Origin: Candidatus Brocadia sinica JPN1
GTDB taxonomy: Bacteria; Planctomycetota; Brocadiia; Brocadiales; Brocadiaceae
DNA: 64,000 bases
Direction of reading: 5' to 3'
Assembly (NCBI RefSeq): GCF_000949635.1
Contig: NZ_BAFN01000001.1
Location: forward strand, 372,001-436,000
Within the stretch, counting starts at the first letter, position 1, and every line of letters starts with the position of its first letter. The notes under the pieces are model-generated. The model searched no databases and was not told where the DNA came from. It saw nothing but the letters and a program-made list of their open reading frames with translations. A program made the translations under genes and the position numbers. Positions 53,400 through 64,000 of the stretch are shown here, piece by piece.

Positions 53400-53663
53400 T
53401 CAGCGGTGAAGTCCCTCGAAAATTCAATCGATTCATGCCTTGTTTTTTTCTCTTTTCCGGAGGAGGAATGGATATCGATGAGAACAACGAATATTGTTAA
53501 GGGATTGAACAAAGAATTTAAGAGAAGAACAAAGCCTATGGAGATTGTAGCGGGAGAGAATTCCTGTTACCGGCTGTTGGCCTTTATCCCATTAAGGATA
53601 GAATTAGCATGGAGAACGGCTCCAATTGGAAAGATGAATGCGAATCTACCATTTTTCAGATAA
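53400..53663 (+). pseudogene. C-terminal relic of an IS256-family transposase
   Basis: The frame reads AVKSLENSIDSCLVFFSFPE, EEWISMRTTNIVKGLNKEFK and RRTKPMEIVAGENSCYRLLA, the well-conserved C-terminus of mutator-type (IS256) transposases, where RTTN...ERLNxEFRRRTKxMxxF is the hallmark. The catalytic D, D and most of the protein are missing to the left. An in-frame ATG makes it look like a small gene, but it is a fragment. Confidence 0.75.
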
Positions 53664-53853
53664 ATAGCAGAAAAAGAATTGAAATCTCTTGTAAGCCTTA
53701 AGAACACTGATAGAATCAAGCAAAATCGAAAAGCATAAGAATACATGGAAAACTGTATAAATAGCCAGGAAATAACTATTTGTTATTTGCCTGTATTCTG
53801 TAAGTCTTACGGTAACAAGAGTATATAAAAACCTGTATTTGCCCATGTCGTAC

Positions 53854-54807
53854 TTATGCCGTACCCGCCTGAGAGATCATCGGTATTACAGCCCTTTCAC
53901 TTATGGTTAGGATATGGTCTGTCAACGCCTGTGAATCCCTTCTCTTGCTGTCTAATCCAATATGGGAATATTTCAAGGTCATACTCAGGTCACTATGTCC
54001 CAACATTTCCTTTACGGTAACGGCACCGGTTCCCAAATCACCCTGTAAACTAGCAAAGGTATGTCTTAGACAGTGGTAAGTAAAGCCATGAATTCCCAAC
54101 CGTTCAAACACTTCTTTAAAATGCTTGCTACGGCATGTAATGAGCGATTGGTTTATTTCTGAATCCTCAAACAGATTATTGTTTTTACAATTGCCCTTAT
54201 AGTCTGTTAGTTCCTTTACCATGAAATCGGAAAAGGGAACAGTTACTTGTTTTCCTGTCTTGGATTGAGTAAACGTTAACAGGTTTCTGGTAAAATCAAA
54301 ATTATCCCATGTTAACTTTAGTGTTTCGTTTAACCGTAATCCACAAAATAAGCCAAGTAAGACTGCCATACGGTCATGGCCTTGTAATGTGTTCAACAAT
54401 ATGCGTATTTCTGATTCAGATAAAACCCTGTCTCTGGACTGCATTGCCTTTAGCCGTTTAACGTCCTTACATGGGTTTCCATCAATGACACCCTCTTTTA
54501 TGGCCGTATTGTATAAATGCGACAGTATAGCCAGGTCATGATTAACCGTGATAGCACCCACTTTGTCCGTTTCCTGTCTGGAAAGCTTGAATCGCTCAAC
54601 AATAAACGGTGTCAATTTATCCAGCCGATAATCCCCTAAATACTTCGTCAAGGCATTTACCGCCCGTTCTCTTCCAAGTCGTGTGTTTTCTTTATCACCT
54701 TTGTGATGTTCTAAATACCTTTGGCAGTATTCCACAAAGGTAGGAACAACCTTCTTCTTTGGCAGGTTCAGTTTACCACGTTCCCGGTCACCTATAAACA
54801 TAGCCAA
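53854..54807 (-). CDS. Tyrosine recombinase/integrase, catalytic part (downstream of an in-frame TGA)
   Basis: 317 codons with the complete catalytic set of phage-type integrases: Arg158 (FCGLRLNETLKL), Lys183 (QSKTGK), His245 and Arg248 (YHCLRHTFAS), His271 (EMLGHSDLS) and Tyr280 (TLKYSHIG). A SAM-like core-binding domain (about 20-105) precedes it. The only start in this open stretch is a TTG at 54807 without a ribosome site. The same frame continues upstream past a TGA at 54859-54861 into a convincing N-terminal arm beginning at ATG 55020. So the enzyme was originally about 387 residues. Whether the shortened or read-through protein is made is open. Confidence 0.85.
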   Translation of the reverse strand: MAMFIGDRERGKLNLPKKKVVPTFVEYCQRYLEHHKGDKENTRLGRERAVNALTKYLGDYRLDKLTPFIVERFKLSRQETDKVGAITVNHDLAILSHLYNTAIKEGVIDGNPCKDVKRLKAMQSRDRVLSESEIRILLNTLQGHDRMAVLLGLFCGLRLNETLKLTWDNFDFTRNLLTFTQSKTGKQVTVPFSDFMVKELTDYKGNCKNNNLFEDSEINQSLITCRSKHFKEVFERLGIHGFTYHCLRHTFASLQGDLGTGAVTVKEMLGHSDLSMTLKYSHIGLDSKRRDSQALTDHILTISERAVIPMISQAGTA

Positions 54808-54858
54808 GCGCTTCTCTGCTTCCGTCTTGTTCCTTATGTCCTTGAAGGTAAGGGATTG

Positions 54859-55020
54859 TCATTCCTTCCGGTCGTCAAAGAATTCAATGCACCATGTCCC
54901 ACAGGTCTTGTATTCACCATTTGACCGCTTAGGCCGATCCCCCGGACAATGCTTACCTTGTCTACCGTTACAAGGAATAGGCTTGCATTGCTGGAAATAC
55001 TTCCGATACCTAACCGCCAT
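54859..55020 (-). pseudogene. N-terminal arm of the same integrase, ending in TGA
   Basis: From ATG 55020, 53 codons run in the same frame as the catalytic part and stop at TGA 54861-54859. The arm has five cysteines in a zinc-like pattern (CKPIPC, HC, TCGTWC) and ends FFDDRKE; beyond the TGA the frame goes on QSLTFKDIRNKTEAEKRLA. Integrases of this type have Trp at that point (KxWQSxTFK), so one TGG-to-TGA change explains the break. AAAGGA lies ten bases before the ATG. Confidence 0.7.
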
Positions 55021-55042
55021 TGTCTCGCCGTCCTTTCTGAAA

Positions 55043-55092
55043 TAAAAAAGGCAACTAACACCCTGTAGGACGGTACAGGATGCCGTTGCCTT
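55043..55092 (-). terminator. Strong Rho-independent terminator on the minus strand
   Basis: AAGGCAAC/GTTGCCTT outer arms (55048-55055 and 55085-55092) enclose CCTGTA/TACAGG arms (55062-55067 and 55074-55079), followed on the minus strand by a T-run. It lies 22 bases upstream of the integrase start and would have ended transcripts from the HTH gene at 56589-57095 before ISL3 inserted between them. Confidence 0.75.
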
Positions 55093-55121
55093 CGTTACGA
55101 TGATATAAGTGTCTTTCGTAT

Positions 55122-56351
55122 TTAAGTTGAAAGCTTAGGGTCAAGAAGTCCGCAATGTTGATGAATCTTGAGTAAGAAGTATTTGACGTCTCGATAACCG
55201 TATGCCATGCGCTTGAACCTCTTTATTTTGTTATTGATTCCTTCTGATATAGCGGACGTTATTTTGCAAACAAAATAGTTCAGAACATAATGCCTCTTCC
55301 GGAAAAATTTGTATCCTAGCTCTACAAATGATGCTATCCCAGACCTTATTGCTGTCCCTATCCACGCCCTCAGATTTGCATATGCTACCCTTCGATTACT
55401 TGCTACATAAAGAGAAAGAAACTGCTCCTTTAAAAGCATTGCCTTATATACCTTCTCATTGAGCGTTGAGAGTTTATCTAAAATGTCCTTCTGCTTATTT
55501 GTAACCTTATTTTGCATCAATATAAACCTCTTGTTGCAATGAAGAATTCGACTCAAGTCTTCCTGGTTTTGTTGCCTGGCTTTTCTGAGTTCTTCCTTCC
55601 TTACCGCATCTACTGCCTCATTGAGATACTTCTTTACATGAAAATGATCCAATACTATCAAGGCATTCTTCAAATGCTCTTTCGTAGACGTAAGAAAACC
55701 CTTTGCTCCATCGCTTGCCACTGCCTTTATCCTCTTACAACCTTCCTTGCCTATCTTACGATAAAATTTATCCAGCGTTGTCTTGCCCCGTCCATCGTGA
55801 TTCCAAATCACCTTGCGCTTTTCCACATCAACAACATTGGTAACATACTTGTGCCACTTCTGCCATGCAACCTCATCCACACTCATATGACGCGGCGCCT
55901 TCACTTTCTCAATTCTCTCCAGTGATAACTCCTCTAACATCTCCTTATCTATCCGGTACACCGTCTCATCGTCTATTCCAAGAAACCATCCTGCTTCCTT
56001 ATTTGTCGTTATTGAGGTCAGTCGATACACCTGTTCCACAAAACGCTTCGTAAATCTCCCCCTTATCCACTCGTGCTCCTCTACCCGAATACTCCCATCT
56101 TCAAGGCACATCGATTTCCTCTTCGGTACGTGCAAATATACCCTCCTACTACTCATCGGTAGGTCTTCTACTGTTATTCTTCCCACACTATGCACTGCCG
56201 TATTGTGCACTTTACCGCAACCTGAACATACACTCGTTCTTTCTTCCTCTTGCTCCAATAAAAACTCTATACTGCTTTCCGTGCTGGATATCATATGCGT
56301 TACTTTAAATCCTGGAATTCGTAATAATTCTGTGATAGTATCTAACCGCAT
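55122..56351 (-). CDS. ISL3-family transposase
   Basis: 409 residues, full length. N-terminal zinc finger (VCSGCGKVHN) with HTH, the NKEAGWFLGIDDETVYRI segment, catalytic Asp159 in HMSVDEVAWQK, Asp214 in AVASDGAKGF, the VLDHFHVKKYLNEAVDAVRK signature of the family, and the C-terminal SEGINNKIKRFKRMAYGYRD. GAGGAG lies seven bases before the ATG. The gene looks intact and probably functional. The start codon lies within one arm of a 12-bp inverted repeat (see the separate entry). Confidence 0.92.
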   Translation of the reverse strand: MRLDTITELLRIPGFKVTHMISSTESSIEFLLEQEEERTSVCSGCGKVHNTAVHSVGRITVEDLPMSSRRVYLHVPKRKSMCLEDGSIRVEEHEWIRGRFTKRFVEQVYRLTSITTNKEAGWFLGIDDETVYRIDKEMLEELSLERIEKVKAPRHMSVDEVAWQKWHKYVTNVVDVEKRKVIWNHDGRGKTTLDKFYRKIGKEGCKRIKAVASDGAKGFLTSTKEHLKNALIVLDHFHVKKYLNEAVDAVRKEELRKARQQNQEDLSRILHCNKRFILMQNKVTNKQKDILDKLSTLNEKVYKAMLLKEQFLSLYVASNRRVAYANLRAWIGTAIRSGIASFVELGYKFFRKRHYVLNYFVCKITSAISEGINNKIKRFKRMAYGYRDVKYFLLKIHQHCGLLDPKLST

Positions 56352-56421
56352 CGAATTTCTCCTCGTGTAGTATGATCTTATCTCTCATAAAACCATATTA
56401 CATACGGATGAAATTCGATGC
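56348..56421 (-). promoter_or_regulatory. Inverted repeat covering the ISL3 transposase start codon
   Basis: GCATCGAATTTC at 56348-56359 and GAAATTCGATGC at 56410-56421 are perfectly complementary over 12 bp. In an mRNA entering from outside the element the two pair, burying the AUG and the bases next to the GAGGAG ribosome site. A transcript begun between the arms would escape. Confidence 0.6.
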
Positions 56422-56588
56422 TATCCTTTTACTCTCATCTTTTACCCTATCTTCCCTACTTATATTTTCCTGTCTTCAACTTTTTTACGAATGAACCTGA
56501 TATAATCATCGTATTATATTCATGCGTTCCGTCCAACGCCTTGTTTTCCGTACGTTATCGTACCTTTTCAGTTAATGCAAGGATTTTT

Positions 56589-57095
56589 TTACCTGTTCTC
56601 ATGACTTTTAATTTCTTCTGTGACATCTTTAACTTGTAGCTCTTTTAAAAGTTCCTCTTTGCGTTTACGAATTTCCTCTAAGGATGTCTGGATTGTAAAT
56701 TGATCTATATTTTCAGTGCTTTGCCCCCGGATTAATCGCTTCTTGTCTTCCAAAATACCCATAGCCACAATACGTTGAGCAAATGGAGTCTTTTTTATAT
56801 CTTCTTCGGTAATGCTTTTATATATCCTATGTTGTAAGACCTCATAATGTGTTGCAGTGTCTTTACTGAATCCCTCAAATTCCTCGCAATCCTGCAATCT
56901 TTGCCAAATGTTTTGTTTTGAGCATTTCAGGATGTCAGCTATCTGTTGTAGTGACAAATTCTTGCGCCGAAGCTCAATAATCTTTGCCAGTGGAATATCT
57001 TTGTTATTTCTGTTAATGCCGTCACTGGGTGAAATGATGTCAACATCTTCGGCCTGAATAGCCTTTATTGTTTCATTGGATTTGTTTTCAGTCAT
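56589..57095 (-). CDS. Helix-turn-helix DNA-binding protein of the mobile element
   Basis: 168 residues. A clear helix-turn-helix lies at about 38-68 (IIELRRKNLSLQQIADILKC then SKQNIWQRLQ), followed by helical, charged regions and a Lys/Glu-rich coiled coil near the C-terminus (LEEIRKRKEELLKELQVKD). GAGG is seven bases before the ATG. In this setting it could be a repressor/activator or a terminase-small-subunit-like protein; nothing decides. It is divergent from the small membrane genes at 57155, sharing a 59-base promoter region, so it may control them. Confidence 0.65.
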   Translation of the reverse strand: MTENKSNETIKAIQAEDVDIISPSDGINRNNKDIPLAKIIELRRKNLSLQQIADILKCSKQNIWQRLQDCEEFEGFSKDTATHYEVLQHRIYKSITEEDIKKTPFAQRIVAMGILEDKKRLIRGQSTENIDQFTIQTSLEEIRKRKEELLKELQVKDVTEEIKSHENR

Positions 57096-57137
57096 CGTTT
57101 TACCTCTTTTTACTGTTTTGTTTTTATTGTTATGTGG

Positions 57138-57143
57138 TATAAT
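57138..57143 (+). promoter_or_regulatory. -10 box for the small membrane-protein genes
   Basis: A perfect TATAAT preceded by TGG (extended -10) with only a weak -35. The ATG at 57155 is 11 bases further on, so the leader would be only about 5 bases. Confidence 0.5.
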
Positions 57144-57154
57144 GTATTCAAAAT

Positions 57155-57337
57155 ATGAATGAAAAACAAAGAGAAGACGTTGTTAAATTTCTGTATGACT
57201 TAGCAAAGCTTACATATACAGGTCTTATCATTGGTGGTATAATTTCACCAAAAGGACTTCTCTGGTTTCATATACTCTTTGGTGTCTGTGCATCAATAAT
57301 CTTTTTTATCGTAGCCTATAAACTTAGAAAGGAATAA
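57155..57337 (+). CDS. Small two-helix membrane protein (60 aa)
   Basis: 60 residues: a charged start (MNEKQREDVVKFLYDLAKL), then two hydrophobic segments (about 18-32 and 36-55) separated by SPKGLLW, and a basic end. It resembles short DUF6722-like membrane proteins from memory. There is no ribosome site, in line with a near-leaderless mRNA. It is first of three or four tiny genes on the plus strand within the mobile element. A holin-like or toxin-like role is imaginable but not supported by a lysis neighbour. Confidence 0.6.
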   Translation: MNEKQREDVVKFLYDLAKLTYTGLIIGGIISPKGLLWFHILFGVCASIIFFIVAYKLRKE

Positions 57338-57341
57338 CGTT

Positions 57342-57443
57342 ATGGATTCGCTTAGCTTACTTTTCATATTGGCAATCGCAATAACGCTTATCGGCTTTGG
57401 TATTTATTATTTCCAGGAACGGAAGAAAAAGCACACCCATTGA
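57342..57443 (+). CDS. 33-aa single-helix membrane protein
   Basis: ATG at 57342 with AAAGGA eight bases upstream. The protein is one hydrophobic helix (SLLFILAIAITLIGFGIYYF) followed by a short basic tail QERKKKHTH. Four bases after the previous stop. Its layout is repeated in the next gene. Confidence 0.55.
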   Translation: MDSLSLLFILAIAITLIGFGIYYFQERKKKHTH

Positions 57444-57450
57444 TTTAACA

Positions 57451-57552
57451 ATGAATGAAACCAACCTTTTAATAATCTTTGGTGTAGGAATTGTTGCCTT
57501 GTGGGTAATGTATTTCTATATCACAAGACACGAAAAGCACAAACACGGCTAA
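57451..57552 (+). CDS. 33-aa single-helix membrane protein, second of the pair
   Basis: ATG at 57451, seven bases after the previous stop. One hydrophobic helix (NLLIIFGVGIVALWVMYFYI) and a tail TRHEKHKHG. Same length and same plan (helix, then Lys/His-rich tail) as the gene before it, so the two look like diverged duplicates. Confidence 0.55.
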   Translation: MNETNLLIIFGVGIVALWVMYFYITRHEKHKHG

Positions 57553-57553
57553 T

Positions 57554-57664
57554 TTGACCAATACAGCCCGAAAAGAATCCACCGCAAAAGCTCAAAGCAC
57601 ATCAGCCACGTTAGAAAATCATACAGGTTACCCATCAAACAAACTCCGTGTCCTTACGGATTGA
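57554..57664 (+). CDS. Possible 36-aa protein following the membrane pair
   Basis: An open frame from TTG 57554 directly after the preceding stop, polar and Thr/Ser-rich (TNTARKESTAKAQSTSATLE ... GYPSNKLRVLTD). It overlaps the end of the convergent methylase gene by 37 bases. Only its position and protein-like composition support it. Confidence 0.25.
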   Translation: MTNTARKESTAKAQSTSATLENHTGYPSNKLRVLTD

Positions 57665-58464
57665 AAATTGCAGTATAAGACCTCTTGGGTTCTTGGCTTT
57701 TCCTCACCTTCTGACTTATGGGATCCCTTGAACGATTGATATTCATATCTATTCCAGCCCTTGTATAATTCATCATATAAGCTATTCTGATAGTGTGAAA
57801 CCATAGCCTTGCCCTTTACCTTGTTCAATAGCTCTGCAAGGTTGTAATGGTCATCCTGGCTAAAGGAATCCTTGCCGTAATAATGTTCTGAATTCAGATA
57901 AGGTGAATCGCAAAAAAACAGGGTGTCTTCTGAATCATATCGCTTAATGCAATCGGTATAGTCTAAGGACTCAATACAAACGTTTCTGAGACGTTCTGCA
58001 ACCATGTCAAAGGTCTCAATAGTATTCCGAAAGCTTGTTATTGGATTACGTCCGGTGGTAGAAGGTACAGCAAAGCCACCCCTTAGCTGATCGCCTGAAA
58101 AGCATGTCCTGTTTAGGTAATACCACTGTGCTACACGCTCAATTTCGTCCTGTGGGATATTGCCTTGTTTCCAGTTTGCCCTTATCCCTTGCCATAAACT
58201 TCGGGAATATGGCATATAGTTTAAAAGGTTAGTCAACATTTGGCATTTCCCCGGTTCCTGAATGACCCTAAAGAAGGTTACCAAATAATTATCGATATCG
58301 TTTATAACTCCCGCCTGAGACGGTTCTTTTCCAAAGAGTAAATGTCCGGCGCCGCAAAAGGGTTCACAATAAAGGGTATGCTGTGGTATATGCTGAGATA
58401 GCCAGCTTGCCAGAAAATATTTCCCGCCCATGCGATTAACAGGACTCCTTAAGGCAACATTCAT
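57628..58464 (-). CDS. DNA adenine N6-methyltransferase (Dam/D12 class)
   Basis: 278 residues. SAM-binding motif CEPFCGAGHLLF (33-44) and N-terminal RSPVNRMGGKYFLASWL are D12-class features. The catalytic DPPY is here FCDSPYL (Asp186-Ser-Pro-Tyr189), a first-Pro to Ser change seen in some members. It probably methylates GATC or a related site to protect or mark element DNA; no restriction enzyme gene is adjacent, so it acts as an orphan methylase. Four bases after the excisionase-like gene, in the same operon. Confidence 0.88.
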   Translation of the reverse strand: MNVALRSPVNRMGGKYFLASWLSQHIPQHTLYCEPFCGAGHLLFGKEPSQAGVINDIDNYLVTFFRVIQEPGKCQMLTNLLNYMPYSRSLWQGIRANWKQGNIPQDEIERVAQWYYLNRTCFSGDQLRGGFAVPSTTGRNPITSFRNTIETFDMVAERLRNVCIESLDYTDCIKRYDSEDTLFFCDSPYLNSEHYYGKDSFSQDDHYNLAELLNKVKGKAMVSHYQNSLYDELYKGWNRYEYQSFKGSHKSEGEEKPRTQEVLYCNFQSVRTRSLFDG

Positions 58465-58468
58465 ACGT

Positions 58469-58657
58469 TTATATCCGCTCGGTAAGATTCTCGTTGATAA
58501 ATGCCTGTAAATCCTCTGGCCGAAACCTATTTAGCTTGCCTATCTTTACCACCGCTATTTCCCTGCGCATTACCATTTGGTATAATGTATTTTTCTTGAT
58601 GCCCAACAAGCTAGACGCTTCATCCATGTTTAGAAGTCTGTTATTATCTATTTGCAT
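58469..58657 (-). CDS. Excisionase-like winged-helix (HTH_17) protein
   Basis: 62 residues, one MerR-type helix-turn-helix: LLNMDEASSLLGIKKNTLYQ, MVMRREIAVVKIGKLNRF, RPEDLQAFI. This is the AlpA/excisionase fold used to direct recombinase excision or to bind the element origin. Its start overlaps the end of the PC4-like gene by 10 bases; the methylase follows after 4 bases. Confidence 0.8.
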   Translation of the reverse strand: MQIDNNRLLNMDEASSLLGIKKNTLYQMVMRREIAVVKIGKLNRFRPEDLQAFINENLTERI

Positions 58658-58887
58658 TCTTTTACCCCCATTTGTTTTGCCTTATTGAGTAATCCGATAA
58701 GTATATCCACCTTGCCCGGTGGTAACGTTATGCCTTTTTTCGTGAAACACCACTCATTTTTTTCATTTAGGAAATATGTTCGTATGTCCAAGTAATCAAA
58801 CCCTTTGTATTCCTTCATGGATACCACTACCTTTTCGCCTTCTTTCTTCTGAATTTCACCAAATTTAACACCTTGTTCATTTGTCAT
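58648..58887 (-). CDS. PC4/YdbC-like single-strand DNA-binding protein
   Basis: 79 residues with the transcriptional-coactivator PC4 fold pattern: VVVSMKEYKGFDYLDIRTYF, then NEWCFTKKGITLPPGKVDIL. Bacterial members bind single-stranded DNA and are frequent in mobile elements, probably in replication or late transcription. It lies between a hypothetical gene and the excisionase-like gene in one tightly packed operon with the primase-helicase. Confidence 0.8.
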   Translation of the reverse strand: MTNEQGVKFGEIQKKEGEKVVVSMKEYKGFDYLDIRTYFLNEKNEWCFTKKGITLPPGKVDILIGLLNKAKQMGVKECK

Positions 58888-58908
58888 AAATACCTCTAAA
58901 TAAAAGTT

Positions 58909-59289
58909 TTAGTTAGAATAAAATGATTTGTATTTGTCGATTAAGTCACATCGGCCAATTTCTTTTAAGGTGTCACATACAGATTGACCGCCGTTCCAGT
59001 AATGGTATTTCCTGTGACTATTAAAGGGAATGACCAACACCCCGGAATCGGTGACATACGGTTCGGTCTGTCCGGGTTCGCAATTCTCGCCCATGATGCA
59101 CATTCTCTCGTTTAAAGACTCTTTCTCTGCCGAAATCTCACCTATAGGCTCGCCTATCGTTTTAATCTTGCCTTCCATGATAAGCTTTAAGGCCTTTTCC
59201 TCTGCAATGGTGATTACCTGTCCGGGATGTAAGTTTAAATCGCCCTGTTTTGTTTTGACTGTGAAAGGTGTCGTTACTTCGTATCTCAT
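58909..59289 (-). CDS. Mobile-element hypothetical protein (126 aa)
   Basis: 126 residues. It starts with a short beta-rich part (MRYEVTTPFTVKTKQGDLNL HPGQVITI across the first 28 residues), followed by a helical stretch and a region with VLVIPFNSHRKYHYWNGGQS and CDTLKEIGRCDLIDKY. Two cysteines in ERMCIMGENC could bind metal. I do not recognise it. The ATGA overlap with the primase-helicase gene shows co-translation, so a replication-accessory role is plausible. Confidence 0.6.
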   Translation of the reverse strand: MRYEVTTPFTVKTKQGDLNLHPGQVITIAEEKALKLIMEGKIKTIGEPIGEISAEKESLNERMCIMGENCEPGQTEPYVTDSGVLVIPFNSHRKYHYWNGGQSVCDTLKEIGRCDLIDKYKSFYSN

Positions 59290-61091
59290 AGTTCAACCCC
59301 CAAATCATCAAGGTTTATAGGTTCGTTCGATACTGTATTTTTTACCGAAAATTCTTGTTCCCGTTCTTGAAAATTTGCAGAATTTTGGGGACAAGAATAA
59401 TCCTTGATTTTATGCGGGTATCCAGCCGTTTCGGGGTTCTTGTTTTCATGTTCCCAACATATACCGGGAACAAGGGAACAAGAATATTTAAAGGGGTCGC
59501 CTTTGCCCCCTTTTCCGTCTCGCTTAACCTCTTTCCCAACCATTTCCCGAAGCGCCTTTCTTTTGTTAACAGTTTTGCCTTCAACCCCATCCATGATTAC
59601 TGCCTCCGTAACCGGTTCGGCTTGTACTGATAAGAATTCAATAATTGCCGTTTTTGACAAATTAATATCCTCTTCCTGTCGGCTACCACCAAAAACGAGA
59701 CGCCTTGTCGTTTTATCATAACCTAATATAATTTCTTCTAAATCCTCCCCATACCTCTGAATCGTCTTAATTGTCCTATAATGTTCGTGACGTCCCATTA
59801 TCATAAGAGTATCGACACTACCAAAGATTGCTTGGCTACCCAAAACACAATTACCATCCTGGCTATCCATTTTGTTGGCATGATGAACACATAGGACGTG
59901 AGTTCCGGTATTTCTAGATAATCGCAATAAGGGCTCTAAAGCATTTGTGACTTGGACATAATCGTTCCCATCTTTAACCTTTGTCAAACGAAATAAGGGG
60001 TCTATTATTAAAAGCAATGGTTTTAATGATTCGATTTGTTTAATGGCATCGGCAGGTGCTCCCCCAACATAAATGTGAATTTCCTCTTTGCCGCTTGCTC
60101 CCATAACCTGAAAATGTCTTTTTACTTCTGACCGCTTTTCTTCTAAAGCCAAATAGATAACTGCACCTTGATTAACGTCTCTGCCTAGAAATGGCTTATT
60201 TCTTGCAATACATAGCCCCAAATTTCTAGCAAGTGTGGATTTCCCAACTTTTGGCTTTGCCACCAATACAGAAAAACCGCCAGAAGGGAGTAACCTGTCA
60301 ACCAGCCAAGTTGTAACCTCTTCAGGCTCTTGAAATAAACTGTCTAAACGCGTTAACACCATTGCTGCTGGTCTTTCTTTTTGGTGTTTTTCGAAAATAC
60401 TCCTTACCGTTTGCTCAATCTCTTTTACCGACAATGGCGGATTGTTTTTTAAATTCCATAACCTTGCGTTCTCCAAACACTCTTCGAAGGTAAGACCGTC
60501 CCTTGCCCATGATCCCACAAGTCTTGCAAGGGTAGTATTACGATCGCCCTTTGTAGCCCCCCGGTAGAGTTCTTTCAATGGCGTTTTATCCTCTGGTGTT
60601 TTAGCCAAAATTATTTCTGGAAACTCTGCTAAAGGCAAATCATCAAGACTTTTCGATTTCACCCACATATATTGGCATCCCGAAAAGTGCACGGACGGTG
60701 GAGCTACCACATAACCACCGTCACCCCGAAGGTCAGTCCCTGGTAGGTTATCACGTTTTTGAAAATTCCTTATGCCTTCTTTATATTTATAATAAGCATG
60801 AAATCCCTTCTTAGTCATTACCAATGGGGTTTCGGGAAAGTTCATTTCTCTTGCATACTGGACGGCTTCCGGGGTGTCAAAGTCAATAACTGCAATCCCT
60901 GATATTTTGCCAGTGACGATGCCGATATTATTTTGGCTGCCATTTCCAAACCATTCTTTCAATTCCTCATCCGTAGCATAACGCTTTTGATATTCAGCCC
61001 AGGGTATTAAAGGTTTTTTATCTTTCGGGACAAGCGGTATTACCGAAAAGTTTTTTGAACGATAATAAAAAGCCATTTCAAGAGTTTTCAT
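59286..61091 (-). CDS. PrimPol (bifunctional primase/polymerase) fused to RepA-like helicase
   Basis: 601 residues. Residues about 5-165 are a Prim-Pol domain with the metal-binding pair Asp70/Asp72 (IAVIDFDTP), His98 (GFHAYYKY) and GTDLRGDGGYVVAPPSVH. Residues about 255-470 are a RecA-like AAA_25 helicase with Walker A AKPKVGKST (278-286) and Walker B LLLIIDPLFRL, plus the CVHHANK sensor. This fusion initiates replication of plasmids, phages and satellites. The gene starts one base after the ribbon-helix-helix gene stop (TAA-a-ATG). It marks the element as able to replicate by itself. Confidence 0.88.
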   Translation of the reverse strand: MKTLEMAFYYRSKNFSVIPLVPKDKKPLIPWAEYQKRYATDEELKEWFGNGSQNNIGIVTGKISGIAVIDFDTPEAVQYAREMNFPETPLVMTKKGFHAYYKYKEGIRNFQKRDNLPGTDLRGDGGYVVAPPSVHFSGCQYMWVKSKSLDDLPLAEFPEIILAKTPEDKTPLKELYRGATKGDRNTTLARLVGSWARDGLTFEECLENARLWNLKNNPPLSVKEIEQTVRSIFEKHQKERPAAMVLTRLDSLFQEPEEVTTWLVDRLLPSGGFSVLVAKPKVGKSTLARNLGLCIARNKPFLGRDVNQGAVIYLALEEKRSEVKRHFQVMGASGKEEIHIYVGGAPADAIKQIESLKPLLLIIDPLFRLTKVKDGNDYVQVTNALEPLLRLSRNTGTHVLCVHHANKMDSQDGNCVLGSQAIFGSVDTLMIMGRHEHYRTIKTIQRYGEDLEEIILGYDKTTRRLVFGGSRQEEDINLSKTAIIEFLSVQAEPVTEAVIMDGVEGKTVNKRKALREMVGKEVKRDGKGGKGDPFKYSCSLVPGICWEHENKNPETAGYPHKIKDYSCPQNSANFQEREQEFSVKNTVSNEPINLDDLGVEL

Positions 61092-61092
61092 T

Positions 61093-61263
61093 TTATCCGT
61101 TCCCGCTCCTCTCAGAACATTTGCAATCTTTGCTTTTCAAAACAAGAGTAATTCCATTTCGCACTATTTCACTAATTGGCTTGCCAAGTTTATAACTGGT
61201 CTCCTTTAATGCGTTGTAAGTTTTCCCACTGATTAATATGTTCAAATGTCGATAGCCTTCCAT
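61093..61263 (-). CDS. Ribbon-helix-helix (CopG-like) regulator
   Basis: The start is set at ATG 61263, four bases after GGGGG. 56 residues with the pattern RHLNILISGKTYNALKETSY then KLGKPISEIVRNGITLVLK, a beta strand plus two helices as in CopG/Arc repressors that control plasmid copy number. It is coupled to the primase-helicase gene (one-base gap), so it probably limits replication. Two closing cysteines (KDCKCSERS) are not typical. Confidence 0.7.
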   Translation of the reverse strand: MEGYRHLNILISGKTYNALKETSYKLGKPISEIVRNGITLVLKSKDCKCSERSGNG

Positions 61264-61276
61264 TTTTCCCCCATAA

Positions 61277-61326
61277 ATAAAAAAGGTCACAAATTACGAA
61301 CAAACACTTGTCCGCAACTGTGACCT
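61277..61326 (-). terminator. Terminator between the zinc-finger gene and the replication operon
   Basis: AGGTCACA/TGTGACCT outer arms (61284-61291, 61319-61326) and CGAACAA/TTGTCCG inner arms (61297-61303, 61308-61314, one G-U pair), then a T-run on the minus strand reaching nearly to the RHH ribosome site. The layout mirrors the terminator before the integrase. Confidence 0.7.
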
Positions 61327-61436
61327 ATGATATTTATTGCTTTGCTTAAATGAAACTACATCCAGGTAATTTCTTTATTCACGAATTCGGTATTTACATA
61401 CATCCCCCTTTAAACACCGCATAAGACAAGAAATTT

Positions 61437-62207
61437 TTATGAAATTCCGTATTTCAAGCTTGTCTTCCTTTTATAATTCCTAAAAGTCTCTCCACACTCA
61501 TATACCAATTTATATGCTCTTTCCTTAGCTTCTCTTGGTAGGAATTTCTCTTTGTCTATTAACCATTTTTCAAACTCTTGAATGTCTGCTTTTTGTCGAT
61601 TTCTCTTATTGCGATCTCTCCCCGTGCTGACACGTTTGTTAATGTCTTCTCTGGACGATTCACCAAATTTTTTCCCGCAAACCTCATCACAAAAAACACT
61701 CTTTGGTTTACCCCGGCCTTTACGCTTTTCTACAATCCAAAATGTTCCGCAACATTTGCATTGTTTTAAACGTGAGTGTAAGTCTTTACGCTTTTCCCAA
61801 AAACCATAAATACAGGCGCATATTGTGCTTTCTAGACTACCACCAAATCTAACCCGATTGTCTTTTTCGTATTTCCTGAGAAACTCACCTATTAGATATG
61901 GGCTTTCTTCGTATTCACTAAGCTCAATCCCCATATTTATTCTTGCCAAGTATGAAAAGATATAAAACACCTTATTCCACAATTCAAATTCTTTACCTGT
62001 TGGTGGGAATCCGTATTTCCCCAGGAATATATTAAATTCCTCTGCTGTAGGATAGCACTTGCCATGACCAGCAAATACAGGTTTGCCGTTTTCTGTAATC
62101 CACGAATAACCTTTATGATCAACAACTCCACGATTACTTTTATGTTCTGCAATAGCCCTATTTATAGCATCCCTGGTGTACCCTAGCCCCTTATAATATT
62201 CTGTCAA
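61437..62207 (-). CDS. Zinc-finger protein of the mobile element, probably 5'-truncated by IS3
   Basis: 256 residues from a TTG at 62207, the only start in the open stretch. The frame continues upstream (LNDLSAETIKSL) to a stop at 62247-62249 right at the IS3 end, so the original N-terminus was probably cut away. A CGNR-like zinc finger is visible at about 150-185 (KQCKCCGTFWIVEKRK ... SVFCDEVCGKKF). A basic region follows. Likely DNA-binding; the function is unknown. It is followed by a terminator. Confidence 0.6.
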   Translation of the reverse strand: MTEYYKGLGYTRDAINRAIAEHKSNRGVVDHKGYSWITENGKPVFAGHGKCYPTAEEFNIFLGKYGFPPTGKEFELWNKVFYIFSYLARINMGIELSEYEESPYLIGEFLRKYEKDNRVRFGGSLESTICACIYGFWEKRKDLHSRLKQCKCCGTFWIVEKRKGRGKPKSVFCDEVCGKKFGESSREDINKRVSTGRDRNKRNRQKADIQEFEKWLIDKEKFLPREAKERAYKLVYECGETFRNYKRKTSLKYGIS

Positions 62208-62422
62208 AGATTTGATTGTTTCTGCCGATAAGTCGTTTAATGGTTAAGGTGTACCCCATTGTCTAGACAATTATTTAATAAAAATAAGATAGAATTTTAG
62301 TATTGTTTATGCGAAGTATCTTTTAATTATTTGATGAGCAGGAAAACGGAATGGAGCGGAGCGGAATGGAGTTTTTCTGCTCATCCGCCGTGCATTTCTC
62401 CGTTCTTGCTTTCTTGCCATTT

Positions 62423-63307
62423 TTACCCGGTCAGTTCAAGAGTATTTACCATCTCTCCTTTCCGTGCCTTTTTGTTACTACAATACAGCGTTGCTGGCGC
62501 TCTGTATTTAAGCGACTGATGTAATCTCTCGTTGTTATAAAAATCAAAATACCTCCTTAAACCATCCACTGCCTCTCTTACCGTCTTATAGTCTTTTAAA
62601 TACACCTCCTCGTATTTTATCGACCTCCACAAACGCTCTATAAAAATGTTATCAAACACTCGTCCCCTTCCATCCATGCTGATCTTTACCCCGGCTCCCT
62701 CTAATTTCCCAGTAAACGCATTGCTCGTAAACTGCGATCCCTGGTCCGTGTTAAATATCTCAGGGCATCCCTTCCTTATTGCCCTGTCTAATGCTTCCAG
62801 ACAAAATCCCACATCCAGGGTTATTGATGTCTCCCACGACAGCACATACCGACTATACCAGTCCATTATTGCCATGAGATATACATACCCCTGATTGAGC
62901 CGTATGTACGTTATATCCGCACACCACACGTGATCTGGATACTCTATACTCAATCCTCTGAGTAAATATGGGTATTTCTTGTGTCCTTCACCTCCTTTAC
63001 TTAGCCAAGGCTTCGGATAGATCGCATATAATCCCATCTTCCTCATTAACCGTTTTACCCTCTTAGGGTTTACCTCATGCCCTTCCTTTCTTAACCATGC
63101 CGTCAACCGCCTTACCCCATAAAACGGATACCCCGTATAATACTCATCTATCAGGTTCATCAATTGAAGATTATATGCACTCTCACCAATCGCCTTATAA
63201 TAAAAGACTGAACGGGATATCCCCAGTAACTCACACTGCCGACTTACACTTATCTCCTCATTTTCTGGCTCTATTAACCTCTTCCTTTCCTCAACCGTTG
63301 ATCCCAA
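62423..63307 (-). CDS. IS3-family transposase OrfB (integrase catalytic part)
   Basis: 294 codons from a TTG in the overlap; normally made as an OrfAB fusion by -1 frameshift. HTH_21 region (SRQCELLGISRSVFYYK) and the rve catalytic domain with the D-D-E triad: VWCADITYIRL, IFNTDQGSQFTSNAF, and the Glu in NIFIERLWRSIKYEEVYL. The family ending YNNERLHQSLKYRAPATLY is complete, so the enzyme looks functional. Confidence 0.9.
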   Translation of the reverse strand: MGSTVEERKRLIEPENEEISVSRQCELLGISRSVFYYKAIGESAYNLQLMNLIDEYYTGYPFYGVRRLTAWLRKEGHEVNPKRVKRLMRKMGLYAIYPKPWLSKGGEGHKKYPYLLRGLSIEYPDHVWCADITYIRLNQGYVYLMAIMDWYSRYVLSWETSITLDVGFCLEALDRAIRKGCPEIFNTDQGSQFTSNAFTGKLEGAGVKISMDGRGRVFDNIFIERLWRSIKYEEVYLKDYKTVREAVDGLRRYFDFYNNERLHQSLKYRAPATLYCSNKKARKGEMVNTLELTG

Positions 63308-63575
63308 CTTTTTTTTTCAGCCAATCCAGTTCAACCTTCAATTGCCCTATCTGCTGGTACAACGACGCACGCAATTCATCCTCCTTTCTGGCATCTTGCA
63401 CCTTCTTCAGCGAAAATATCCTCGGTATCTCTTCTATTACCTGCTTCTTCCACTGTGCTATCTGCGTTGGGTGTACCCCATATTGCCCTGCTAGCTCGTT
63501 TGCAGTCTTCTCCCCCTTTATCGCTTCTATCGCTACTCTCGCCTTAAATTCCCCATTATATTGCTTCCTCTCCAC
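63291..63575 (-). CDS. IS3-family transposase OrfA
   Basis: 94 residues. Helix-turn-helix (FKARVAIEAIKGEKTANELA, GQYGVHPTQIAQWKKQ) followed by a leucine-zipper-like helix (LRASLYQQIGQLKVELDWLK). OrfA binds the element ends and regulates transposition. It overlaps OrfB by 17 bases. Confidence 0.9.
   Translation of the reverse strand: MERKQYNGEFKARVAIEAIKGEKTANELAGQYGVHPTQIAQWKKQVIEEIPRIFSLKKVQDARKEDELRASLYQQIGQLKVELDWLKKKVGING
63308..63317 (-). promoter_or_regulatory. Slippery A9G run for -1 frameshifting between OrfA and OrfB
   Basis: On the coding strand, nine A residues then G (codons AAA AAA AAA G) lie in the overlap. A -1 slip joins DWLKKK to KLGSTVEERKRL, giving the OrfAB transposase. 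IS3 elements commonly use A6G/A7-type slippery runs. Confidence 0.7.
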
Positions 63576-63754
63576 CTCTTATTTTATACCCCCTTTCCAA
63601 ACCTTTTTCTCTTCCATGCCTGCCTTTAGCCAGGCATGATTTTCTATCTTAACATACTGTCCAGTTTTTGGGGTACATTATAGGTTCAGGTTCTTTGGTA
63701 GGTGTTCTCTTAAGAGGATTTACTATTGGTCTGAAAGCACTTAGAACGCCCTTT

Positions 63755-63841
63755 TTAAAAGGAAGGTTTGCAAATTCTAAAATCCCCTTGAATAGGTTCA
63801 AAAGCTTTCTTTGCTTCCGGTGTGCCTTTTGGTGTGCTCAT
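63755..63841 (-). pseudogene. Short frame with strong ribosome site, probable start of a gene cut by IS3
   Basis: AGGGGG lies four bases before ATG 63841; the frame gives MSTPKGTPEAKKAFEPIQGD and stops after 28 codons. In the next frame a proline/lysine-rich segment (GVLSAFRPIVNPLKRTPTKE) runs to the IS3 end at 63677. This looks like one gene with a frame shift, cut by IS3; it may once have joined the zinc-finger frame beyond the element. Function unknown. Confidence 0.4.
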
Positions 63842-64000
63842 GTTACCCCCTAAAGTAAGAAGCCCTAGAAAATGATTAAGGGAAATCCATCTAGGGAAAT
63901 GGACTTGTCGGTCGGCCAACCTATCCCTTAATTGTTCAAAGTCCTGAAATGCGAAAATTTTTCGCTCAAAACCCTTTTTGCTGTATTCCTATCACAGGGG
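63842..64000. other. Window end, no gene recognised
   Basis: Stops occur in all frames on the minus strand, and nothing with family features is seen on the plus strand. It may hold the promoter of the truncated gene at 63841. Confidence 0.4.

Follow-up and report, generated by a model that had tools for sequence, protein, structure and literature searches.

Tyrosine recombinases such as lambda Int (1z1b) and Tn1549 Int (6en2) are among the closest described counterparts of the integrase studied here; like them, it has core-binding and catalytic domains, the catalytic residues and, as predicted, an N-terminal domain placed before them. It differs from both in sequence (about 20-25% identity), in being interrupted and in the lack of a Pfam arm-domain match. 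The element that carries it resembles PICI-like and other small integrative elements: it is about 10 kb long, the integrase is terminal, an excisionase-like HTH protein and a primase-polymerase are encoded, and no structural phage genes were recognised. The one hint of helper-phage packaging, as in PICI-like satellites, is a terminase-like match, and a weak one (E 0.002). A search of the literature on anammox integrases and on Brocadia pseudogenes yielded nothing relevant.

The integrase frame and its internal stop

The window analysed is a stretch of 64,000 nucleotides from the genome of Candidatus Brocadia sinica JPN1. Translation of the minus strand from 55020 to 53854 gave 388 residues with a single internal stop: TGA at 54861-54859, codon 54 of the frame, in the context KE-stop-QSLTFK. 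The product scored 80 bits against Phage_integrase (PF00589; curated cut-off 27.1), the SAM-like core-binding domain was also above its Pfam cut-off, and the catalytic set is complete and falls in conserved alignment columns (R229, K257, H316, R319, H342 and Y351). This score and these residues identify the product, at the level of sequence, as a tyrosine recombinase. No Pfam arm-domain model matched the N-terminal 90 residues. A frame of 388 codons with one stop, aligning end to end with intact homologues, excludes chance as its origin, judged from the alignment. The initial annotation had described the frame as open from 55020 to 53854 save for the TGA and the catalytic residues as intact; retranslation agrees, and all six residues were located.

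Relatives were sought in 33 genomes of the host's family and across the order. The closest is the integrase of a congener (G010), 93% identical over the whole length, which belongs to a related element occupying the same chromosomal site. In this sister copy codon 54 is TGG, one G-to-A change away from TGA. Trp was also found in all of the other relatives aligned at that position (40 of 40, not counting the sister copy); the single different letter, a Tyr, came from a second, distant match within one locus, and Cys occurred in no relative aligned. The premature stop is thus absent from the orthologues, and the claim of the initial annotation that it replaces a conserved Trp holds. The same gene was not found in viral contigs, and phages and plasmids gave distant matches only, with less than 28% identity among the matches listed.

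The window and sister integrases differ at 93 nucleotides (dS 0.29, dN 0.035, ratio 0.12). The ratio points to purifying selection over most of their divergence and hence suggests a young stop at codon 54. At some family-conserved residues the window copy is changed (e.g., L95F, L304V and A362D). The sister copy has changes of its own, among them one at the LGH glycine (G341R), and may for this reason be impaired too. No surplus of changes at conserved residues was found in the window copy compared with its sister.

Over its first 300 nt (54721-55020) the gene is 87% identical to the sister copy, against 94% for the remainder, with dS of 0.66 and about 0.2, respectively; local recombination in this part is a possible reading of the alignment. 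Among other loci of the family (L118, L090, L094, L117 and others), the first 88 residues are between 35% and 90% identical to the sister copy while the remainder stays near 45-55%, a pattern suggesting that integrases have swapped their N-terminal domains.

About ten other copies found in the order are broken independently, at unrelated positions: stops occur at residues 77 and 230, frameshifts near residues 31, 40, 115, 139, 181, 333 and 341, and there are internal deletions as well. Where the genomes are fragmented, some of these lesions may stem from misassembly. As aligned, the scattered lesions point to no common recoding site. A stop or frameshift site shared within the family was considered for two loci (L166 and L165) that both break within the first 45 residues, and was rejected: the nucleotides and the changes differ, and the other lesions lie elsewhere.

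The integrative element and its putative arm-type sites

The element is about 10.3 kb long, with the integrase at its left end, and is bounded by direct repeats of 114 bp that are 90% identical. The left repeat (att site) lies at 53674-53787 and its partner at 64107-64220 (L106:11107-11220), just past the window. End repeats with an integrase adjoining one of them mark the region, by its sequence features, as an integrative element. An ISL3-family insertion sequence (55109-56497, minus strand; transposase 55122-56351) lies between the integrase and the following gene; it is flanked by a perfect 8-bp duplication, TGATATAA, at 55101-55108 and 56498-56505, and is missing from the element of G010. 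The genes that follow are all on the minus strand. They code for an HTH protein with the weak terminase-small-subunit match (56589-57095), a D12-class adenine methyltransferase (57628-58464), an excisionase-like HTH protein of 62 aa (58469-58657), a small regulator-like protein of 79 aa (58648-58887), a 126-aa protein not assigned to a family (58909-59289), a primase-polymerase with an AAA domain (59286-61091), which ends with TGA in an ATGA overlap, and a 256-aa protein with CxxC pairs (61437-62207). The last adjoins an IS3-like insertion sequence (62250-63677, minus strand; transposase 62423-63307), for which no clear target duplication was seen. No RNA family of Rfam was found over 53500-64000.

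The chromosome to the right of the element is common to the host and G010, and the left flanks differ. Because the left flank of G010 maps to another part of the host genome, the comparison indicates that the chromosome beside the element has been rearranged as well. A short ORF just left of the element (53406-53663), which we take to resemble the end of a transposase, is possibly a trace of this event. The G010 element (L104, L105) differs in its primase module, which seems to be spread over more than one frame, and has a frameshifted methyltransferase gene; this element may be decaying too, or may be mis-assembled.

The fold of the integrase was predicted from an alignment of 13 sequences, with a modest mean pLDDT of 69.7, and its best matches were Tn1549 and other tyrosine recombinases, including lambda integrase. 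Strands at residues 2-10, 38-48 and 54-58 and a helix at 59-81 are predicted ahead of the core-binding domain, a layout that, in the model, resembles that of arm-binding domains. The stop leaves a fragment of 53 residues, interrupting the protein where the third predicted strand begins.

A tandem GTACG repeat overlaps the 3' end of the integrase gene (53839-53865), with a partner beyond the window at 64043-64069 (L106:11043-11069). The pattern GTACG-N6/7-GTACG lies on or close to the stop codon of almost every family integrase examined (L075, L110, L119, L094 and others); some tandems are degenerate, and the reading frames differ. A second tandem was found at the far end of the element in both elements checked, that of the window and that of G010. 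On the basis of this arrangement, the tandems are probably arm-type binding sites.

Decoding of the TGA and alternatives to a nonsense mutation

The host genome contains hydrazine synthase alpha genes, which mark the host as an anammox bacterium, a gene for RF2 (prfB, 511 bits; cut-off 370) and two intact integrase paralogues. The one tRNA-Trp found has the anticodon CCA and an anticodon stem of five pairs; the form tied to UGA readthrough has a four-pair stem (PMC13092985). A tRNA-Sec with anticodon TCA is also present (L125:1501-1597), so some host genes may read UGA in a second way. Within the genes of the element itself, TGG encodes Trp 22 times, and TGA terminates 5 of the 36 window ORFs of at least 250 aa. 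The 66 nt running downstream from the stop, searched for a SECIS-like fold, folded no better than shuffled sequences (z 0.14).

Special decoding of the integrase TGA is unlikely in view of the RF2 gene, the canonical tRNA-Trp, the absence of a fold, the 22 TGG codons and the TGA end of the primase gene. The initial annotation had raised an origin of the element in a host that reads TGA as Trp; codon counts, the RF2 gene and the tRNA-Trp led us to reject such recoding, and the survey it had proposed of in-frame TGA codons in other genes of the element turned up none beyond codon 54. A selenoprotein was likewise rejected: a tRNA-Sec exists, yet no hairpin follows the UGA and the relatives have Trp rather than Cys. 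The broader idea of an element originating or residing in a system that decodes TGA as Trp or Sec finds its one favourable point in that tRNA and, with close relatives found in the same order only and carrying Trp, is effectively refuted. Low-level readthrough with Trp, which would supply a little full-length integrase and limit mobility, is a different matter, and we regard it as highly improbable. In bacteria UGA terminates weakly when C is the next base, so slight leakiness of this stop is conceivable, and a near-cognate tRNA-Trp would put back the native residue. However, the stop is confined to the window copy among the aligned relatives, the tRNA-Trp is of the canonical kind and no significant structure lies 3' of the stop; readthrough as a regulated device, as the initial annotation had suggested, is without support. 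A related reading, in which the stop is tolerated as a brake and small amounts of full-length or arm-less integrase arise, through rare insertion of Trp or from a downstream start, leaving the element stably integrated yet occasionally mobile, is in our estimate very unlikely.

Translation could also restart at TTG 54807, or at the in-frame ATG two codons later. The candidate frame (53854-54807, minus strand; 317 aa) is open and holds every catalytic residue, and lacks the N-terminal domain. It is scarcely credible that it gives a working integrase, because relatives retain this domain and the tandem sites putatively bound by it persist at both ends of the element. Orthologues starting at the downstream TTG, which the initial annotation had held would count against its reading, are not what the alignment contains: nearly all full-length relatives begin upstream and keep the domain. 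The chief remaining doubt is that a miscalled base, or misassembly, has produced the TGA in a gene that is in fact intact. The stop is indeed a lone substitution in an otherwise open frame; against an error stand an assembly in 3 contigs scored as 100% complete, the 36 long ORFs found in the window and the further decay seen in the element, and we consider it unlikely.

Probable inactivation of the integrase

Very probably, a once-functional integrase of a small integrative element was inactivated by a G-to-A nonsense mutation that changed Trp54 to TGA. We take this as ordinary decay, in a mobile element, and not as a special reading of the code; it is supported by the ISL3 insertion, with its duplication and its absence from the sister element, together with the IS3-like insertion. 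The otherwise open frame, the low dN/dS and the lack of surplus changes at conserved residues weigh against inactivation; the stop may be recent.

The stop would cut the protein inside the predicted arm-binding domain, and restart at the TTG or ATG could yield core-binding and catalytic domains only, without the part predicted to bind GTACG. With its integrase truncated or arm-less, and its activity and arm-site binding presumably lost, the element is probably immobile, barring another integrase or rare readthrough of the UGA; in principle, the two intact paralogues could act in trans. Of the proposal in the initial annotation that a nonsense mutation locks the element in place, the mutation is borne out by the TGG of the sister copy and the unrelated lesions in the family, and the locking is a reasonable inference.

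The TGA gives no reason to suppose that the element is recoded or its host unusual; it documents ordinary inactivation of an integrase in a family common among anammox bacteria. As a by-product, the analysis provides an integrase family that is well sampled, has a conserved GTACG tandem at the 3' end and an independently varying N-terminal domain, and could be used for studying arm-site recognition by integrases.

The locus resembles the integrase pseudogenes known from prophage and island remnants in combining a nonsense point mutation with IS insertions in an integrated element, and in belonging to a family with other independently broken copies. It differs from them in that the window integrase so far has one lesion, which places it at an early stage.
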